A stretch of DNA of 64,000 nt from Flavipsychrobacter sp. (GTDB lineage: Bacteria; Bacteroidota; Bacteroidia; Chitinophagales; Chitinophagaceae): contig JARLGY010000064.1 of NCBI GenBank assembly GCA_031292525.1, positions 186,001 through 250,000 of the forward strand, read 5' to 3'. Within the stretch, counting starts at the first letter, position 1, and every line of letters begins with the position of its first letter. Made by a program: the position numbers and the translations under genes. The notes below the pieces were generated by a model that made no database searches, was not told the DNA's origin, and saw only the letters and a program-made list of their open reading frames with translations. Positions 49,187 to 54,846 of the stretch are shown one piece after another.

Positions 49187-49524
49187 TGTATTCAATTTAG
49201 CGTTATTGTGGACAGAATAGGTCTTCTTCTAGGAAGATGAAATGATCTAAGATAATGCTTGGGTAAATGACTGATAGGTGCTAAAATGGAATGCGCCTAC
49301 CAGCACCTGGGAGATGGTGCCGGGCATGAAAGACCCAACGACATAATATTTAAATAAATGATCACCGTTAGTAAAGATAATAAAAGCAAATAGAATAATA
49401 ATAAAGTGTAGTGCAATTTGCTTAGGCAAGAAAACCACTCCAAATTTCATCGCTATCCTTTGAAAACATAACTACCCCCTTGAAAGAAGGGGTAGTCATA
49501 AAGACATACAGAGTTAACGATCTT
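49187..49524. other. Intergenic region between proC and the di-haem gene
   Basis: 338 bp. A minus-strand open frame of 67 codons (49247-49450) has a hydrophobic centre but no clear start signal, no match and lies beyond the operon terminator, so it is doubtful. The terminator hairpin is at 49471-49496. Confidence 0.4.
49471..49496 (-). terminator. Terminator of the imelysin/di-haem operon
   Basis: Perfect 8-bp stem ACTACCCC / GGGGTAGT (extended by TT/AA past one bulge), 28 bp beyond the stop at 49525; ATGTTTTC follows on the minus strand. Confidence 0.7.
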
Positions 49525-50913
49525 TTACAAGGACTGGAGAAAGGCTATTACAGCATCGCGGTCAGACTTGGGAAGCTGGGTGAAAGCGTTTTTGGTGTTG
49601 TGCGCTTCGCCATCGTGCCAGAGTATGGCCTCCTCAAGAGTACGAGCACGGCCATCGTGCAGGTAATACGGCGTGCCATTTGTCTTTTCTAGTAAGCCCA
49701 TGCCCCAAAGAGGAGTGGTTCGCCATTCGTTGCCATTAGCCTGATAGTCGGGCCGGTTATCAGCCAGCGCTACGCCGAGGTCGTGCACCAGCAGATCGGT
49801 ATAAGGGTGTATGCGCTGGTGGCTGAGGGTGGGCAACGTTTCGTTTACCCCAGTGTACATGGTAGGCTGGTGGCAACTTGTACAGTTGAGCTGAGTAAAC
49901 AATTTTTCGCCTTGCATTACTTGTGCGTCTGTAACGTTGCGACGGGCAGGCACAGCCAGAGTGCGTACATAAAAAGTAACGGCATTGAGTATGCTATCAG
50001 GGATATCAGTACCTGTGGTATCTGGTACTACACTCCATTGCGACTGACCGTGCACACTTTTCTGAGGTTGTACATAGCTGGTTATGCCCATATCTTGCTG
50101 AAAGGCAGTAGCTACCTGCACTTGCAAGCTGCTGGTATTTGCTTTAAGGCCAAAACGGCCCAACTCAGTTTGGTGGGTGTAAGGATTATATACATAGTTT
50201 GCATGACCTTTTACCGCCCCACCCGCTGCTGCATTGGCTGATTGGAAAGCCAATATAGTAGCCTCAGGTACATTCTCTAACAACCCCATGCCTACTACCG
50301 CAGGAGCCATGCGTGGAGATATCATGTAACCGGTAGGTAACGGTATATAGGGACTGGTAAGTACATATGTCGGAGTACGCAGGCTGGCAATAGAACCATC
50401 GGGATAGGTGAAGTAGTTTTCGATATAAGTGATATTGACCTGAGCTTCAGGCTGTACACCAAAGAGCGCTATATTTTGCAACTGACCACCAAAACCAGGC
50501 GCGGGGTTGGGGCCACCAAAAGGATCTTTACCCGCAATACTGATGCGCAACAGAAGTGAAGAACTTGAGGTACCGAAGGTTGGTATACCTATACCATCGT
50601 TATGATGGCAATTGGTGCATGATGTATTATTGAAGATAGGGCCAAGGCCACCGAAGTAAGGTGCAGGGGCGGCAACAAATGCCTGAGAGAATATTTTATC
50701 ACCCAAATCGTGTATGTGCTGATTCCATGCGCTGAGGCCGGGTATGGGGCTGCTGAAAGATGCGGAACTAATGTCGAAAACGGTAGCTGCACCCCCAAGT
50801 AGCCGGGGATCAAAATTTGCATCGTCACCGGGTATAACGGTGTTGGCTTTGCGACATTTAACAGCGCCGGATATAATAACCAGCATGCATATTATAACAG
50901 ATAATTTCTTCAT
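49525..50913 (-). CDS. Di-haem oxidoreductase (DUF1111 type) lipoprotein
   Basis: 462 residues from the ATG at 50913 (MKKLSVIICM); an upstream start at 50934 would add seven residues. Lipobox SGAVKC (Cys20) anchors it to the membrane. Two haem sites: CTNCH (99-103) and CTSCH (344-348). Family motifs include RMAPAVVGMGLLE and TPLWGMGLLEK. These are the features of the di-haem thiol-oxidoreductase-like (DUF1111) family, commonly next to imelysin genes. It is the last gene of the operon, 126 bp after the imelysin gene, from which it is separated by two stem-loops. Confidence 0.88.
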   Translation of the reverse strand: MKKLSVIICMLVIISGAVKCRKANTVIPGDDANFDPRLLGGAATVFDISSASFSSPIPGLSAWNQHIHDLGDKIFSQAFVAAPAPYFGGLGPIFNNTSCTNCHHNDGIGIPTFGTSSSSLLLRISIAGKDPFGGPNPAPGFGGQLQNIALFGVQPEAQVNITYIENYFTYPDGSIASLRTPTYVLTSPYIPLPTGYMISPRMAPAVVGMGLLENVPEATILAFQSANAAAGGAVKGHANYVYNPYTHQTELGRFGLKANTSSLQVQVATAFQQDMGITSYVQPQKSVHGQSQWSVVPDTTGTDIPDSILNAVTFYVRTLAVPARRNVTDAQVMQGEKLFTQLNCTSCHQPTMYTGVNETLPTLSHQRIHPYTDLLVHDLGVALADNRPDYQANGNEWRTTPLWGMGLLEKTNGTPYYLHDGRARTLEEAILWHDGEAHNTKNAFTQLPKSDRDAVIAFLQSL

Positions 50914-50933
50914 TACTATTTCTTTTATCATCA

Positions 50934-51008
50934 CCCATCAAGTATTCTACTCGTTTGATGGGCAACTTTTATTTCAAAGTTCATCCGGCTTAAAAGCCGG
51001 ATGAACTT
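50934..51008 (-). promoter_or_regulatory. Double stem-loop leader before the di-haem gene
   Basis: Perfect 15-bp stem AAGTTCATCCGGCTT / AAGCCGGATGAACTT (50977-50991 and 50994-51008) with a two-base loop, then CCCATCAA/TTGATGGG (50934-50941 and 50955-50962). Both lie between the imelysin stop and the di-haem start. They could act as an attenuator or mRNA-processing element and set the ratio of the two proteins. Confidence 0.5.
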
Positions 51009-51039
51009 CCTTCAACTCTTTATTCTGGAGCAAATACTC

Positions 51040-52110
51040 TTAGTCCTTCACATATGTTTGTATGTGCACCTTCAACGGACCATCGAGCGTAGCCTGCAGG
51101 GTATTTAAAGCAGTCATTGCAGACAGCAGTTGCGTACGTTGCAGGAATATGGCGGTTTCGAAAGTTATATTCACGTTATTGAGTGCATTGATAGCGGTTG
51201 TGAATTGCTGTTTTATGGTATTATCAAGAGAGATATTATTTGCTGATACCAGGTTGCTGATACTTGCGCCTTGTACACCATTGTAGGTGCCGAGGTAAGC
51301 ATCTTGTGCGCCTATAATATTATTCTTAAAATCGGCCATAGAATTATGGGAGAAAGGAGACTCTGTCTGAAAAGAATCGCGAGTGGAATAAGGATCGTAG
51401 AGCTTTCCACCCGTGGCCTGCTGTCCTACTTCATTACATATATCACTCATAGCACCAACAATAGCCAGAAAAGCATCCTGGTGGCTGGTATAGCGTGTGG
51501 CGCCTGCACCTGCCAGCAACACTTGCTTCTGGAAATTACCACCGGTTGCAGACCAGCTGTAATTAAGACTATCTATATTATTAAGTATATCCTGCGATAG
51601 GGCCACCATATACTGTTTTTGCTGTGCAGTAATGGAATCAACCGTAGCATTGCCACTTTGACCCCAGAGTATGAACTCAAGCGGATGGTAACCGCGAAGG
51701 GACGATATAAGATTTTGTACAACATTTACATCCAGGTTAGGACTATTAGCTATCAAGGAATCCAGCTCGTGATAGTCAACAGGCCACGTATCGGTATTAG
51801 GGTCATAGTTAAAATCTTCAACCGGGCCAAACAGAAATCCTTCGCAGGTTTCCCAGGCAGTACGGGTATCGCGCCAGGCCTGCTGCGCCGCAGCCAGATT
51901 AGCACTAGTAGGCGATGCATTGAGCACCAACACCGCATTGTTGAGGGCGGTAGCTTTTACCTGTAGGTTTGCATATTCAGGCAATGCGAGCTTCTGCACA
52001 AAATCGGTAAGCACTTGTGTTTCTGTAACTGCGGTAGAAGGATTGCTGCTGCTTTTTTTGCAACTGCATGCAAATATGCCAATTACGGAAATCAGTATTA
52101 TTTTTTTCAT
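51040..52110 (-). CDS. Imelysin-family lipoprotein
   Basis: 356 residues. Lipobox FACSC with Cys17 likely lipidated. The family motif GYHPLEFILWG (140-150) corresponds to the GxHxxE metal-binding site of imelysins (peptidase M75), with His142 and Glu145. The rest is helical, with the duplicated four-helix-bundle look of the family. Imelysins belong to iron-regulated envelope systems (EfeO-like). The ATG overlaps the Rieske stop (ATGA), so the two are coupled. It is followed by the di-haem oxidoreductase. Confidence 0.92.
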   Translation of the reverse strand: MKKIILISVIGIFACSCKKSSSNPSTAVTETQVLTDFVQKLALPEYANLQVKATALNNAVLVLNASPTSANLAAAQQAWRDTRTAWETCEGFLFGPVEDFNYDPNTDTWPVDYHELDSLIANSPNLDVNVVQNLISSLRGYHPLEFILWGQSGNATVDSITAQQKQYMVALSQDILNNIDSLNYSWSATGGNFQKQVLLAGAGATRYTSHQDAFLAIVGAMSDICNEVGQQATGGKLYDPYSTRDSFQTESPFSHNSMADFKNNIIGAQDAYLGTYNGVQGASISNLVSANNISLDNTIKQQFTTAINALNNVNITFETAIFLQRTQLLSAMTALNTLQATLDGPLKVHIQTYVKD

Positions 52111-52544
52111 GATAATTGTTTGAGTTGAATAAGTATTTGATCGTTTTTAATGGTGGTGTTTAGTTTAATCATGTTTTTTTCTGCAGGGCCTTTGGTTACA
52201 TGACCTTCACGATCAAAAGCGCTACCATGGAGTGTACAGTAGTAGCCGTTTCCCGTTTTTGTAAGTGGATTGCTGGCATGGGTACACATGAGTATCAACG
52301 TTTCATAAGTACCGTCTTTATTTTTTTGAACGGCCAGGTCGTAATCATAATTGCGCAGGCGTATTAATTTATAGTCGCTGGCAGCAAACTCGGTGAGTGG
52401 TATAGCCACCACGTTATTGTTGGCGGCCGTTTTTATAACGCCCAGCGGGGTTTTGCAAGCTTCTAAAACAGCACTCATTAAAAACCCGGAGCCGAGCGCC
52501 ATGCACACACCGCAAGAACCTTTTATAAAATCTTTCCTGTTCAT
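52107..52544 (-). CDS. Rieske [2Fe-2S] protein
   Basis: 145 residues. The Rieske cluster ligands are in CTH (Cys87, His89) and CTLH (Cys103, His106), inside LMCTHASNPL and YYCTLHGSAFD. The N-terminus (MNRKDFIKGSCGVCMALGSG) resembles a Tat-type or lipoprotein signal; VLEAC places a possible lipidated Cys at 30. No cytochrome b gene is near, so it is not part of a bc complex. It should pass electrons between the porin-side substrate and the di-haem protein. Its ATG overlaps the porin stop by one base. Confidence 0.9.
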   Translation of the reverse strand: MNRKDFIKGSCGVCMALGSGFLMSAVLEACKTPLGVIKTAANNNVVAIPLTEFAASDYKLIRLRNYDYDLAVQKNKDGTYETLILMCTHASNPLTKTGNGYYCTLHGSAFDREGHVTKGPAEKNMIKLNTTIKNDQILIQLKQLS

Positions 52545-53821
52545 TAAAATGAGTATCCAATACCTATGTTAAGAAATGTGTTGTTCTGGTTGTACGGTAC
52601 TGCGTTTGGATTGGGGTTTACCAACAATTCAGGATTTTGCGGACCTGTGTGCAGCAAGCGGACATCTGCCTTTATCACTACATTGGGTATAGGAAAGTAG
52701 CCCAGGCCGGCAATGATGTGCGTTTGCTTCTCTGTGCCATCGTACACTGCGTTAGATGGTATTTGTGCGTTCATATCCAGCATCTCGTAACGAGCGAAGA
52801 TGTTAAGTTGCTTTTTTTGCCACTTTTCTGTTTTGGAAGATTGCAGCAGGTTGTATCCTAACTCTGCATAAGCGCCATACATCTGGCTGCTTACGTTGTT
52901 GGCATAAGCCCTGTTGACAGTTGATGCATCGGGCAGGGAAACATTGCAACCTAAAGCTTTAAACGAAATACCCTTGTGGTAATACTGGATATCCCCCTCT
53001 ACCAGGTACATTGGCGTCCCAAATACGCCAGACTCCAGCTGCAGACTATCGGCAGCGCGTGGGCCAAGTGTGGTGGTACCGCCCATGTAGCCAGATACCT
53101 GAAATTTCCAATTACCGGCAAAATACTGAACAGCTGCAGTAACGGCGAGGTTGTTGGCCCCGGCAAACTGTCCCTCTTCCCTGCCTGCCTGGAAACCAGT
53201 ACCATGCTCGAAGCTTGCATTATTCACTCCATTAACTACAGCCACACTATAAGTAAGCGGCAAGGTTGAAGTTTGCCCGTAGAAACCAACACCTATCTCG
53301 CGCCAGGTGCTAGGGATTATCAGCTGCTCTACCAATGGGCGCTCTACACCGTTGAAATTGATGGGAAGATGGTTCTCATTAGTAATACCTATACGTGGCA
53401 GGAACAAACCTGCTACTATGTACTGCCTGGGGTTAAGGCTGAATTTAAGATATGCCTGCTCCATGCCTACCTCGCCAATGCTTCCACCCGCTGCTACCTT
53501 GGCATCTTCCACTTCAAGCTCGGAAAAGAAAGCAATACGGCCAGTGAACTGGTGCCCCACAAACAGAACAGCACGCTTCAAGTCAACTATTGCCGTTTTC
53601 TGATTAAAGTCGCGTTGGTAGTACAACTCACCATAACCGGAAATAACAGTATGGGGCTTAGCGGCACCATATGCGCTCATGGAGTCTTCACCCGTACCAG
53701 CCACCAATTGCTGCGCAGGTGTTTTTGCATTTTGCTCGCTATTGTCCCACTTGGCTTGGGCAAAACTATGCGTTATAAAAAGTGTACTTAATAAGAGAGT
53801 GCCAGATATAAATCGAATCAT
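52544..53821 (-). CDS. Outer-membrane porin-like beta-barrel protein
   Basis: 425 residues with a signal peptide (MIRFISGTLLLSTLFITHSFAQ). The mature part consists of alternating amphipathic strands and ends in GIGYSF, with Phe as the last residue, as usual for barrels. Segments such as GYGELYYQRDF, PRIGITNENHLP and NIFARYEMLDMNA are typical of phosphate-selective porin-like (OprP/DcaP type) barrels. It is the first gene of the operon and should allow the substrate of the system into the periplasm. The region upstream (335 bp) has only an imperfect -7 box (CAAAGGAA). Confidence 0.82.
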   Translation of the reverse strand: MIRFISGTLLLSTLFITHSFAQAKWDNSEQNAKTPAQQLVAGTGEDSMSAYGAAKPHTVISGYGELYYQRDFNQKTAIVDLKRAVLFVGHQFTGRIAFFSELEVEDAKVAAGGSIGEVGMEQAYLKFSLNPRQYIVAGLFLPRIGITNENHLPINFNGVERPLVEQLIIPSTWREIGVGFYGQTSTLPLTYSVAVVNGVNNASFEHGTGFQAGREEGQFAGANNLAVTAAVQYFAGNWKFQVSGYMGGTTTLGPRAADSLQLESGVFGTPMYLVEGDIQYYHKGISFKALGCNVSLPDASTVNRAYANNVSSQMYGAYAELGYNLLQSSKTEKWQKKQLNIFARYEMLDMNAQIPSNAVYDGTEKQTHIIAGLGYFPIPNVVIKADVRLLHTGPQNPELLVNPNPNAVPYNQNNTFLNIGIGYSF

Positions 53822-54156
53822 TGCTGTGCGTGTGTATTATTGAGGTGCAAAGGAAAGACGCAATGACAAGAAGGGCTTTTATAATTGGGAAAAACATTGT
53901 CTTAAAAGGGAAAGATGACTTAAGGTATGACAATAAAATAAATACCGGCATTTAACTTGCTCTTTTCCATTTCTTCTTCGTTGTAAAAGTATTTAAATAG
54001 GTTTCTATTCGCAGATTTACGCTTAGAAGAAAAGAAAAATAACTGCGCCATCTGGTAGTATTTATTTCATCAACGTCACTAAAATGAAAAATCGTTATTT
54101 TTACATTGAAAAATAAAATCTCTTAAAAAGCGTTTAAAGTTATCAAAAACCTATCC
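53822..54156. promoter_or_regulatory. Divergent promoter region of the porin operon and the 54157 lipoprotein
   Basis: 335 bp of AT-rich DNA. A near -7 box for the minus strand is at 53849-53856 (CAAAGGAA, one mismatch). ATTGTC / GACAAT arms (around 53900 and 53929) are the only inverted repeat seen. No clear iron-box could be defined by eye. Confidence 0.35.
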
Positions 54157-54846
54157 ATGCGTACATCTATACTTATTGCAGGCTTCTTTGCCCTTGCTTT
54201 TATTAACACGTCCTGCAAGAAAAGCAGCAGCACAGCTACAAAGCAAACCATGCCGGATGTTATTTATACATCTTACAGTAAGATGGCTCCAGGCAATTAC
54301 TGGATATATAATCTATACAAACTGGACAGTAACTACCAGGTAACCTCTGTGCAAACAGGTACCGATAGTATTTACGTAGATAAAGACACTGTGATTCGTG
54401 GAAATACTTTTCACAAATACTGGCAGCCTAAGACACTTGGCGGTACAGACTATTTCTTCACTTACCTGCGCGACTCGCTGCAATATATCGTTGACGATAA
54501 ATCGAATATCTATTTTGCTGCCCAGGACTTTAAGAATGTGTTTGATACTATATACCAGACCGACCCTAACCATAATATAAGTATGGTGGACACACCGGCG
54601 GTAATACAAGTGCGGATGACCGGCAAGGATAGCACGGAAACAACACCAGCGGGAAAATTTGTAACATCTACGCTGGAATGGGATTATGACCTGAACCAAT
54701 ATTTCTGGAAATTCGGGCCATCCATACGCAGATGCAGTACCCGATACTCGGCTGGAGTAGGTATGGTTTCGCAGGTGCCACCTGCCACTTATTCTTACTA
54801 TGCTACTTATTCACAGCGGAAGCTGCTGCGTTACCATGTGCAATAG
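54157..54846 (+). CDS. Lipoprotein of unknown function
   Basis: 229 residues. Signal peptide with lipobox NTSC (Cys20) followed by KKSSS, typical of surface-exposed or periplasmic Bacteroidota lipoproteins. The mature part is mainly beta-strand (APGNYWIYNLYKLDS, DSIYVDKDTVIRGNTFHKYW, EWDYDLNQYFWKFG). No family recognised. It has its own terminator and is divergent from the porin operon. Confidence 0.75.
   Translation: MRTSILIAGFFALAFINTSCKKSSSTATKQTMPDVIYTSYSKMAPGNYWIYNLYKLDSNYQVTSVQTGTDSIYVDKDTVIRGNTFHKYWQPKTLGGTDYFFTYLRDSLQYIVDDKSNIYFAAQDFKNVFDTIYQTDPNHNISMVDTPAVIQVRMTGKDSTETTPAGKFVTSTLEWDYDLNQYFWKFGPSIRRCSTRYSAGVGMVSQVPPATYSYYATYSQRKLLRYHVQ

Follow-up and report, generated by a model that had tools for sequence, protein, structure and literature searches.

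A conserved porin, Rieske, imelysin, and di-haem oxidoreductase gene set in Bacteroidota with a possible role in iron acquisition

Four genes and their products

We analyzed a 64,000-nucleotide stretch of Flavipsychrobacter sp. DNA (contig JARLGY010000064.1, positions 186,001 to 250,000; referred to here as the window), in which four minus-strand genes (49525 to 53821) encode a porin (POR), a Rieske protein, an imelysin, and a di-haem oxidoreductase (DHOR; Table 1). We refer to this gene order as the first arrangement, to distinguish it from a second one (DHOR followed by Rieske) described below. An earlier sequence-only reading of the window had listed four minus-strand genes with overlaps of 1 bp (porin/Rieske) and 4 bp (Rieske/imelysin), a GYHPLE motif in the imelysin, and two CxxCH haem sites in the last product; the open reading frame (ORF) calls bear out the genes and overlaps, and the motif and both haem sites are present. 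The window genome (4.44 Mb; rated 98.8% complete) contains one imelysin, one DHOR, and three Rieske-profile matches. As the same reading had stated, the Rieske protein lacks a cytochrome b partner: no such gene lies in the operon, and the PF00033 profile matched nothing in the genome.

Table 1. Features of the porin-Rieske-imelysin-DHOR locus in the window.
Feature	Position	Strand	Description
Porin (POR), outer-membrane, 16-stranded (predicted)	52544..53821	-	425 aa; ORF call and predicted structure; no Pfam match
Rieske [2Fe-2S] lipoprotein	52107..52544	-	145 aa; Tat-like start (RKDFIK), lipobox, no disulphide cysteines
Imelysin (M75) lipoprotein	51040..52110	-	356 aa; canonical order, GYHPLE
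DHOR (di-haem oxidoreductase, DUF1111) lipoprotein	49525..50913	-	462 aa from ATG 50913
Perfect 15-bp inverted repeat, imelysin-DHOR gap	50977..51008	-	No T run; z -5.3; single copy in window
Terminator-like hairpin 3' of DHOR gene	49467..49500	-	z -3.5
Tandem operator-like repeat TTTCCC-N15-TTTCCC	53887..53913	-	Half-sites TCTTTCCCTTTT and TTTTTCCCAATT with a spacing of 21 bp; candidate site of AraC type

The DHOR gene is not tightly joined to the other three in the window, where 126 bp separate the imelysin stop from the DHOR ATG; the corresponding gap in 58 relatives had a median of 28 bp, measured from match to match. The DHOR ORF is open from a GTG at 50934 (49525 to 50934; 469 aa), and the ATG at 50913, which is followed by a lipoprotein-like signal, is the likelier start as judged by eye. 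The inverted repeat in the gap is a possible mRNA processing or attenuation element. Beside the operon, a divergent gene (54157 to 54846, plus strand) encodes a lipoprotein-like product of 229 aa with no Pfam or NCBIfam match.

The window porin had no Pfam or NCBIfam match and no sequence relative in the PDB. Its AlphaFold model (pLDDT, 74; pTM, 0.75) resembles many 16-stranded porins, with OprP (2o4v) as the best fold match (Z, 25.5; rmsd, 3.2 over 306 residues), in agreement with the outer-membrane barrel proposed from the sequence. The predicted fold is shared with the phosphate-selective porins OprP and OprO, whereas identity to them is 13 to 14% and the Porin_O_P profile (PF07396) does not match the window porin (a distant homologue, at locus L135, scored 19.0 bits against a cut-off of 20.9). 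The window porin also differs from them in carrying a loop motif, NxxH...[ED]RP. In an alignment of 18 porins, this motif was present in 14 of 14 Rieske-linked proteins and, in full, in none of the four others, one of which keeps NxxH alone. In the porin-cytochrome conduits Mtr and Cyc2, a haem or cluster is inserted into, or fused to, the barrel; here, the porin and the redox proteins are encoded by separate genes.

The Rieske protein belongs to the Rieske superfamily (PF00355, 38.9 bits; cut-off, 20.3), and the ligands of its CxH and CxxH boxes (C87, H89, C103, and H106) were invariant in 26 sequences. Its N-terminus (MNRKDFIK) is a Tat-like signal followed by a lipobox, and a Tat-like start was present in 76 of 77 first-arrangement relatives (RR in 57 and RK in 18). 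A CxxC motif is conserved within this signal, upstream of the lipobox cysteine, in 70 of the 77; cleavage of the signal would leave the motif without an evident function. The best PDB sequence matches were Rieske proteins of the b6f and bc1 type, with which the window protein shares the fold family, the HGS motif, and a Tat-type export signal. Rieske proteins of the bc1 type carry disulphide cysteines beside both ligand boxes. This pair was missing in all 77 first-arrangement proteins and kept in two of eight readable second-arrangement proteins. The window protein differs from its bc1/b6f counterparts in lacking both cytochrome b and the disulphide pair and in having a lipoprotein anchor and a porin partner.

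Membership of the imelysin in family M75 is clear (PF09375, 180.7 bits; cut-off, 23.5), with profile positions 1 to 287 matched in order and no circular permutation. The pattern RG[FYW]HP[ILVM]E occurred in 55 of 63 relatives, and the imelysin profile recovered the solved imelysin structures 3n8u and 4ecg. The match to the EfeO model NF041757 (34.1 bits) was far below its cut-off of 270.

The fourth protein is likewise a clear member of the DHOR/DUF1111 family (PF06537, 339.9 bits; cut-off, 22). Two CxxCH sites and a lipobox cysteine were found in 26 of 26 aligned sequences, and two CxxCH sites in 58 of 58 relatives. Its predicted model (pLDDT, 88) resembles the folds of di-haem peroxidases and MauG (Z, ~15 over 219 to 255 residues) and that of a hydrazine synthase chain (Z, ~15); MauG and the MauG-like copper protein 6e1c scored Z values of 14.4 to 15.2. 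DHOR shares with the di-haem peroxidase/MauG superfamily a predicted fold and two c-type haem sites and differs in its low identity (~17 to 22%), its own Pfam family, its lipoprotein anchor, and the lack of a sequence relative in the PDB. By sequence it falls outside the classical CCP_MauG family (PF03150, 14.3 bits; cut-off, 25.6). Met386 was considered as a fixed haem ligand of DHOR and rejected, the position being Leu in the window protein and in 7 of 56 readable relatives.

Gene orders across the Bacteroidota

The sequence-only reading had proposed a search for the four-gene order in other Bacteroidota. We examined the loci of the best 80 of 543 porin matches, a set that leans to close relatives and, being chosen by porin, always contains one. 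The complete one-strand order was present in 58 of these loci, in many genera. Seven loci whose contigs run on for 3.5 kb or more past the two genes have porin and Rieske alone, as do three more with 1.6 to 3.0 kb. The remaining 12 comprised loci cut by contig ends, three with no Rieske gene (L082, L093, and L103), one with a DHOR remnant (L094), and one rearranged locus (L034). The last, from a Flavipsychrobacter metagenome-assembled genome (L034:5307-10509), has the order porin-imelysin-DHOR followed by Rieske, so that the moved Rieske gene is still nearby. The flanks were not conserved, no flanking gene being common to more than 11 of the 80 loci.

The same association was seen from the Rieske side. 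Of 59 Rieske matches in the same family, the loci of the best 30 were examined. The 29 besides the window all had an adjacent porin homologue, and 23 had an imelysin gene within 1.5 kb. The six others comprise a second-arrangement locus, a locus cut by a contig end, and four with no imelysin gene in the stretch retrieved.

To place these loci within the phylum, we surveyed 395 Bacteroidota genomes for colocation at 63 DHOR places (split fragments of one gene were merged), using 58 of the listed Rieske matches (E of about 1e-11 or stronger) and 41 of the listed imelysin matches. At 29 places, a Rieske gene lay 3 to 210 bp downstream of DHOR on the same strand with no imelysin (i.e., the second arrangement); at five, including the window, Rieske was upstream and imelysin was present; at 26, there was imelysin with no listed Rieske within 6 kb; and at three, there was neither. 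Rieske-profile matches of any strength were found in 254 of the 395 genomes. Counting neighbours by bit score (42 Rieske matches of at least 70 bits), we found that 30 of the 31 matches of at least 90 bits stood beside DHOR and the remaining one (genome G035) beside a porin, as compared with 3 of 11 beside DHOR at 70 to 90 bits. There thus looks to be a Rieske subfamily dedicated to DHOR/porin loci.

Twelve second-arrangement loci were retrieved (11 from the 29 places and L146 from the same-family Rieske loci); in three of them (L143, L144, and L147), Rieske was not a separate listed ORF and was placed by profile search. A distant porin homologue was detected in 11 of the 12 by a window-type profile or BLAST. 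We also retrieved 6 of the 26 imelysin-only places, one of which (L148) is cut at a contig end; no porin homologue was seen by profile or BLAST in the imelysin-DHOR loci L136 and L148. Overall, DHOR stood beside a porin in three of the four arrangements retrieved. At 3 of the 12 loci with the second arrangement, the DHOR gene comes immediately after a split FeoB gene, and a gene for a DtxR-type repressor with a FeoA domain lies upstream; two more of the 12 encode a DtxR/FeoA-type repressor nearby. Three loci with the order DHOR-Rieske-porin (L138, L140, and L142) lie among heavy-metal genes (P-type ATPases and a cation efflux protein), and the metal there may be other than iron. The possibility that the first arrangement is chimeric was examined with unrooted trees of the porin and of DHOR; in both, a single branch separates the two arrangements.

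A direct repeat upstream of the porin gene

In many porin promoters, TTTTTCCCGATT recurs as a direct repeat at a distance of 20 to 22 bp, the spacing that AraC regulators use. The 9-mer TTTCCCGAT, on either strand, occurred in 27 of 81 porin upstream regions and in 17 of 786 other upstream regions of the same loci. For 70 of the 81 porin upstream regions, the top-scoring site of a matrix grown from this 9-mer was on the coding strand; 28 of the 81 had a second direct half-site at 20 to 22 bp, for which the score threshold was set low. In a held-out test with random halves, a site was found in 190 of 324 porin cases and 145 of 6,288 controls, a difference inflated by the relatedness of the loci. 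The window repeat, TTTCCCTTTTAAGACAATGTTTTTCCC, was the sole match to TTTCCCN14-16TTTCCC in the genome (reversed control, 3). A sigma-70 scan returned fewer sites than shuffled sequences did.

A gene for an AraC regulator was the commonest flanking gene, found on the same strand 0.15 to 1.7 kb upstream of the porin at 7 of the 80 loci (identity checked with Pfam at one of the seven). In G007, tandem sites were found both at the porin (scores of 11.9 and 8.9; 22 bp apart) and at a TonB receptor gene, and G060 has a strong pair at the porin (15.1 and 12.2) and a loose pair before a ferritin gene.

The loose form of the repeat (TTTCCCN14-16TTTCCC) was followed in 20 regions, the first ten of which were picked mostly for the GATT form. 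Three sites preceded TonB receptor genes, one a ferritin gene, and one a gene for a protein with a below-cut-off DUF4198 match; two were tandem arrays, and 13 lay in genes or had no clear iron target. The strict tandem GATT form, searched in 147 family genomes, gave 22 matches in 15 genomes (reversed control, 0), of which five fell in two arrays of one genome. Eight of the 17 non-array sites preceded genes for TonB receptors as identified by Pfam, one such receptor being followed by a PepSY membrane protein. The others preceded genes for a periplasmic binding protein, a PepSY-like protein without a Pfam match, and a secreted protein with only a Por_Secre_tail match (one each) or had no clear target (six). 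Three genomes with such sites at receptors lack a strong porin site. From these sites, a regulon shared by the porin operon and iron genes is plausible.

Repeats of this kind were also seen elsewhere. Two arrays in G007 (L192:5210-5341 and L193:5192-5365) consist of 21-bp units like an operator half-site plus spacing, and one of them is flanked by genes for a ribosomal protein and a peptidase. In G141, a loose repeat (L240:5081-5107) lies just past the end of feoB, on the opposite strand, between convergent 3' ends.

The proposed role in iron acquisition and its alternatives

FTR1/EfeU is the usual partner of oxidative iron uptake. It was found in none of 14 genomes with the first arrangement, the window genome included, whereas FeoB was present in all 14 (on another contig in the window genome). 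Therefore, Fe(II) uptake is favoured over a scheme of the EfeUOB type, and the proposal from the sequence alone that the metal is oxidised is unsupported. EfeUOB resembles the window set in that it pairs an imelysin domain with a haem protein for periplasmic iron uptake; the window set differs in having neither EfeU/FTR1 nor an EfeO-level match and in having DHOR in place of EfeB. Feo is linked to the gene set by the split FeoB adjoining the second arrangement at three loci and by FeoB in the first-arrangement genomes, but neither a porin nor a Rieske or haem protein is part of Feo.

Published parallels also concern iron. In an RNA-seq study of the marine Bacteroidota species Bizionia argentinensis, the ten transcripts that fell most upon deletion of the iron-homeostasis regulator MliR include those of a Rieske protein (BZARG_RS03005), a cytochrome c under the adjoining locus tag (RS03000), and an imelysin-like gene; the Rieske protein and cytochrome c were interpreted as parts of complex III and the electron chain (PMC9478572). 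An imelysin lipoprotein is among the entries tabulated for responses to Fur and iron restriction (PMC5609570), and two imelysin genes of Tenacibaculum are listed as possible iron genes (PMC5561996). Imelysin-DUF1111 loci of the ICMP/IrpA/LruB type, the published cases of which are iron-regulated, share with the window set a GxHxxE M75 imelysin beside a DUF1111-type haem protein (PMC3143127, PMC7567364). In contrast to these loci, the window-type set adds a porin and a Rieske lipoprotein, has a putative AraC-type direct-repeat operator in many relatives, and includes porin-Rieske pairs without DHOR. In searches of open-licence PMC text, we recognised no description of a porin-Rieske or Rieske-DHOR iron operon or of a Rieske gene beside an imelysin gene. 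The Rieske protein, which seemed new in the sequence-only reading, is not a one-off but recurs.

The comparisons above show that the porin, the exported Rieske protein, the imelysin, and the di-haem lipoproteins form a conserved unit, with what appears from its sequence to be an AraC-type direct-repeat operator in many relatives. Because the order is conserved, FeoB and repressor genes are neighbours at some second-arrangement loci, the repeat resembles one found before TonB receptor genes in relatives, and the published RNA-seq results (PMC9478572) concur, we interpret the set as an envelope metal system. The metal system of the earlier reading is thereby retained, with iron as the more likely metal; its electron route is weakened, and its oxidation step is unsupported. 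Iron acquisition is the best-supported role, on indirect evidence, and the path and direction of the electrons are our inference. We tentatively regard the window operon as an iron-starvation-induced operon for iron acquisition at the outer envelope, a reading to which we give nearly an even chance.

Under this reading, low iron would cause an AraC-type regulator to switch the operon on, and the porin would admit iron that is not bound to a siderophore. The Rieske protein, as the core partner of the porin, would supply electrons one at a time, drawn from either the respiratory chain or a soluble carrier, and these electrons, directly or via the di-haem protein, would reduce Fe(III) to Fe(II). 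The imelysin would hold the iron and hand it on, and FeoB would move Fe(II) across the inner membrane. The four-gene set suggests an undescribed, electron-driven way to bring in iron.

Several observations weigh against this interpretation. Some concern the company that the genes keep. Three genomes rated 99 to 100% complete (G035, G069, and G078) carry the porin-Rieske pair but gave no match to DHOR at E 1e-6, and a genome profile search of G035 found no imelysin match either. Rieske-to-DHOR transfer is therefore not obligatory, the di-haem step is dispensable, and the Rieske protein must be capable of functioning in the absence of DHOR. The transfer proposed in the earlier reading is weakened accordingly: the two genes do occur together at 34 of the 63 DHOR places, but there are these three genomes and the 26 imelysin-only places. 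L082, L093, and L103 have a porin and an imelysin gene with no Rieske gene between them, and in four retrieved loci from other families, the porin-imelysin-DHOR genes have no Rieske gene next to them. At the protein level, a paper that describes imelysin structures reports no specific binding of ferric ion or haem by the imelysins tested with thermofluor (PMC3143127), and the predicted fold of DHOR is peroxidase-like. The regulatory evidence has its own difficulties. The loose repeat was hardly enriched in ten genomes (61 matches; reversed control, 43), the strict form was absent from the window genome, and none of its 22 places was a porin promoter. G018, G001, and G101 have loose or strict sites elsewhere and weak or no sites at the porin, and in the window, the operon has no AraC gene next to it. 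Control by Fur was rejected, as the best match of each porin upstream region to a 19-bp Fur consensus was no better than in 786 control upstream regions.

Given the loci with porin and Rieske alone, we infer that these two are the core pair. A more specific proposal is that porin and Rieske form a dedicated redox-coupled iron entry gate, in which electrons delivered at the periplasmic mouth of the porin would reduce entering ferric iron, with imelysin and DHOR as add-ons attached to this core in varying gene orders. We consider this proposal possible but doubtful.

The peroxidase-like fold invites other explanations. DHOR could be a Rieske-fed di-haem peroxidase, like bacterial cytochrome c peroxidase, in a defence against peroxide in which imelysin and porin manage iron released by stress. 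This would suit the modelled fold and an H2O2-induced operon of Leptospira that combines imelysin with a cytochrome c-like gene, but the Leptospira imelysins are also induced by iron limitation (PMC7567364), the repeat precedes TonB receptor genes with no peroxide gene among the targets examined, FeoB and DtxR are neighbours in part of the second arrangement, and the porin-Rieske pair persists without DHOR; we consider peroxide defence unlikely. A maturation role like that of MauG or MbnH, in which DHOR would oxidise residues of the porin or imelysin to create a metal site with Rieske as electron partner, could account for the MauG and 6e1c model matches and for the position of DHOR beside the porin in three of the four arrangements retrieved. 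The subthreshold PF03150 score and the existence of porin-Rieske without DHOR make it very improbable.

Two further explanations concern the remaining components. In oxidative uptake like that by EfeUOB, DHOR and peroxide would oxidise Fe(II) to Fe(III), imelysin would bind it, a ferric permease would import it, and Rieske would remove the electrons. The logic of an imelysin plus a haem protein, as in EfeO/EfeB (PMC3143127), and the weak NF041757 match speak for such a scheme, but that match is far under its cut-off and FTR1 was found in none of the 14 genomes, so that we hold it to be quite unlikely. Finally, the Rieske protein might be a spare respiratory one (i.e., a part of complex III) that lies by chance in an iron-regulated operon, as its b6f/bc1-type PDB matches and the interpretation of the regulated Bizionia protein as complex III (PMC9478572) would allow. 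With no cytochrome b found in the genome by PF00033, no disulphide cysteine pair, and 30 of the 31 strong subfamily matches beside DHOR and the other beside POR, we find this hard to credit.

For imelysin and DUF1111 proteins, long tied to iron, no mechanism is known. The porin-Rieske core, its recurrence in two gene orders across the phylum, the contacts at some loci with FeoB and iron repressors, and the operator-like repeat provide a concrete, testable setting, which bears on the iron species that enters, the direction of the electrons, and the role of a Rieske protein without cytochrome b. They also offer another reading than complex III for the iron-regulated Rieske protein and cytochrome c of Bizionia, which may belong to the window family. 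If the entry-gate proposal holds, a Rieske protein would be assigned to metal acquisition and not to respiration or dioxygenation.

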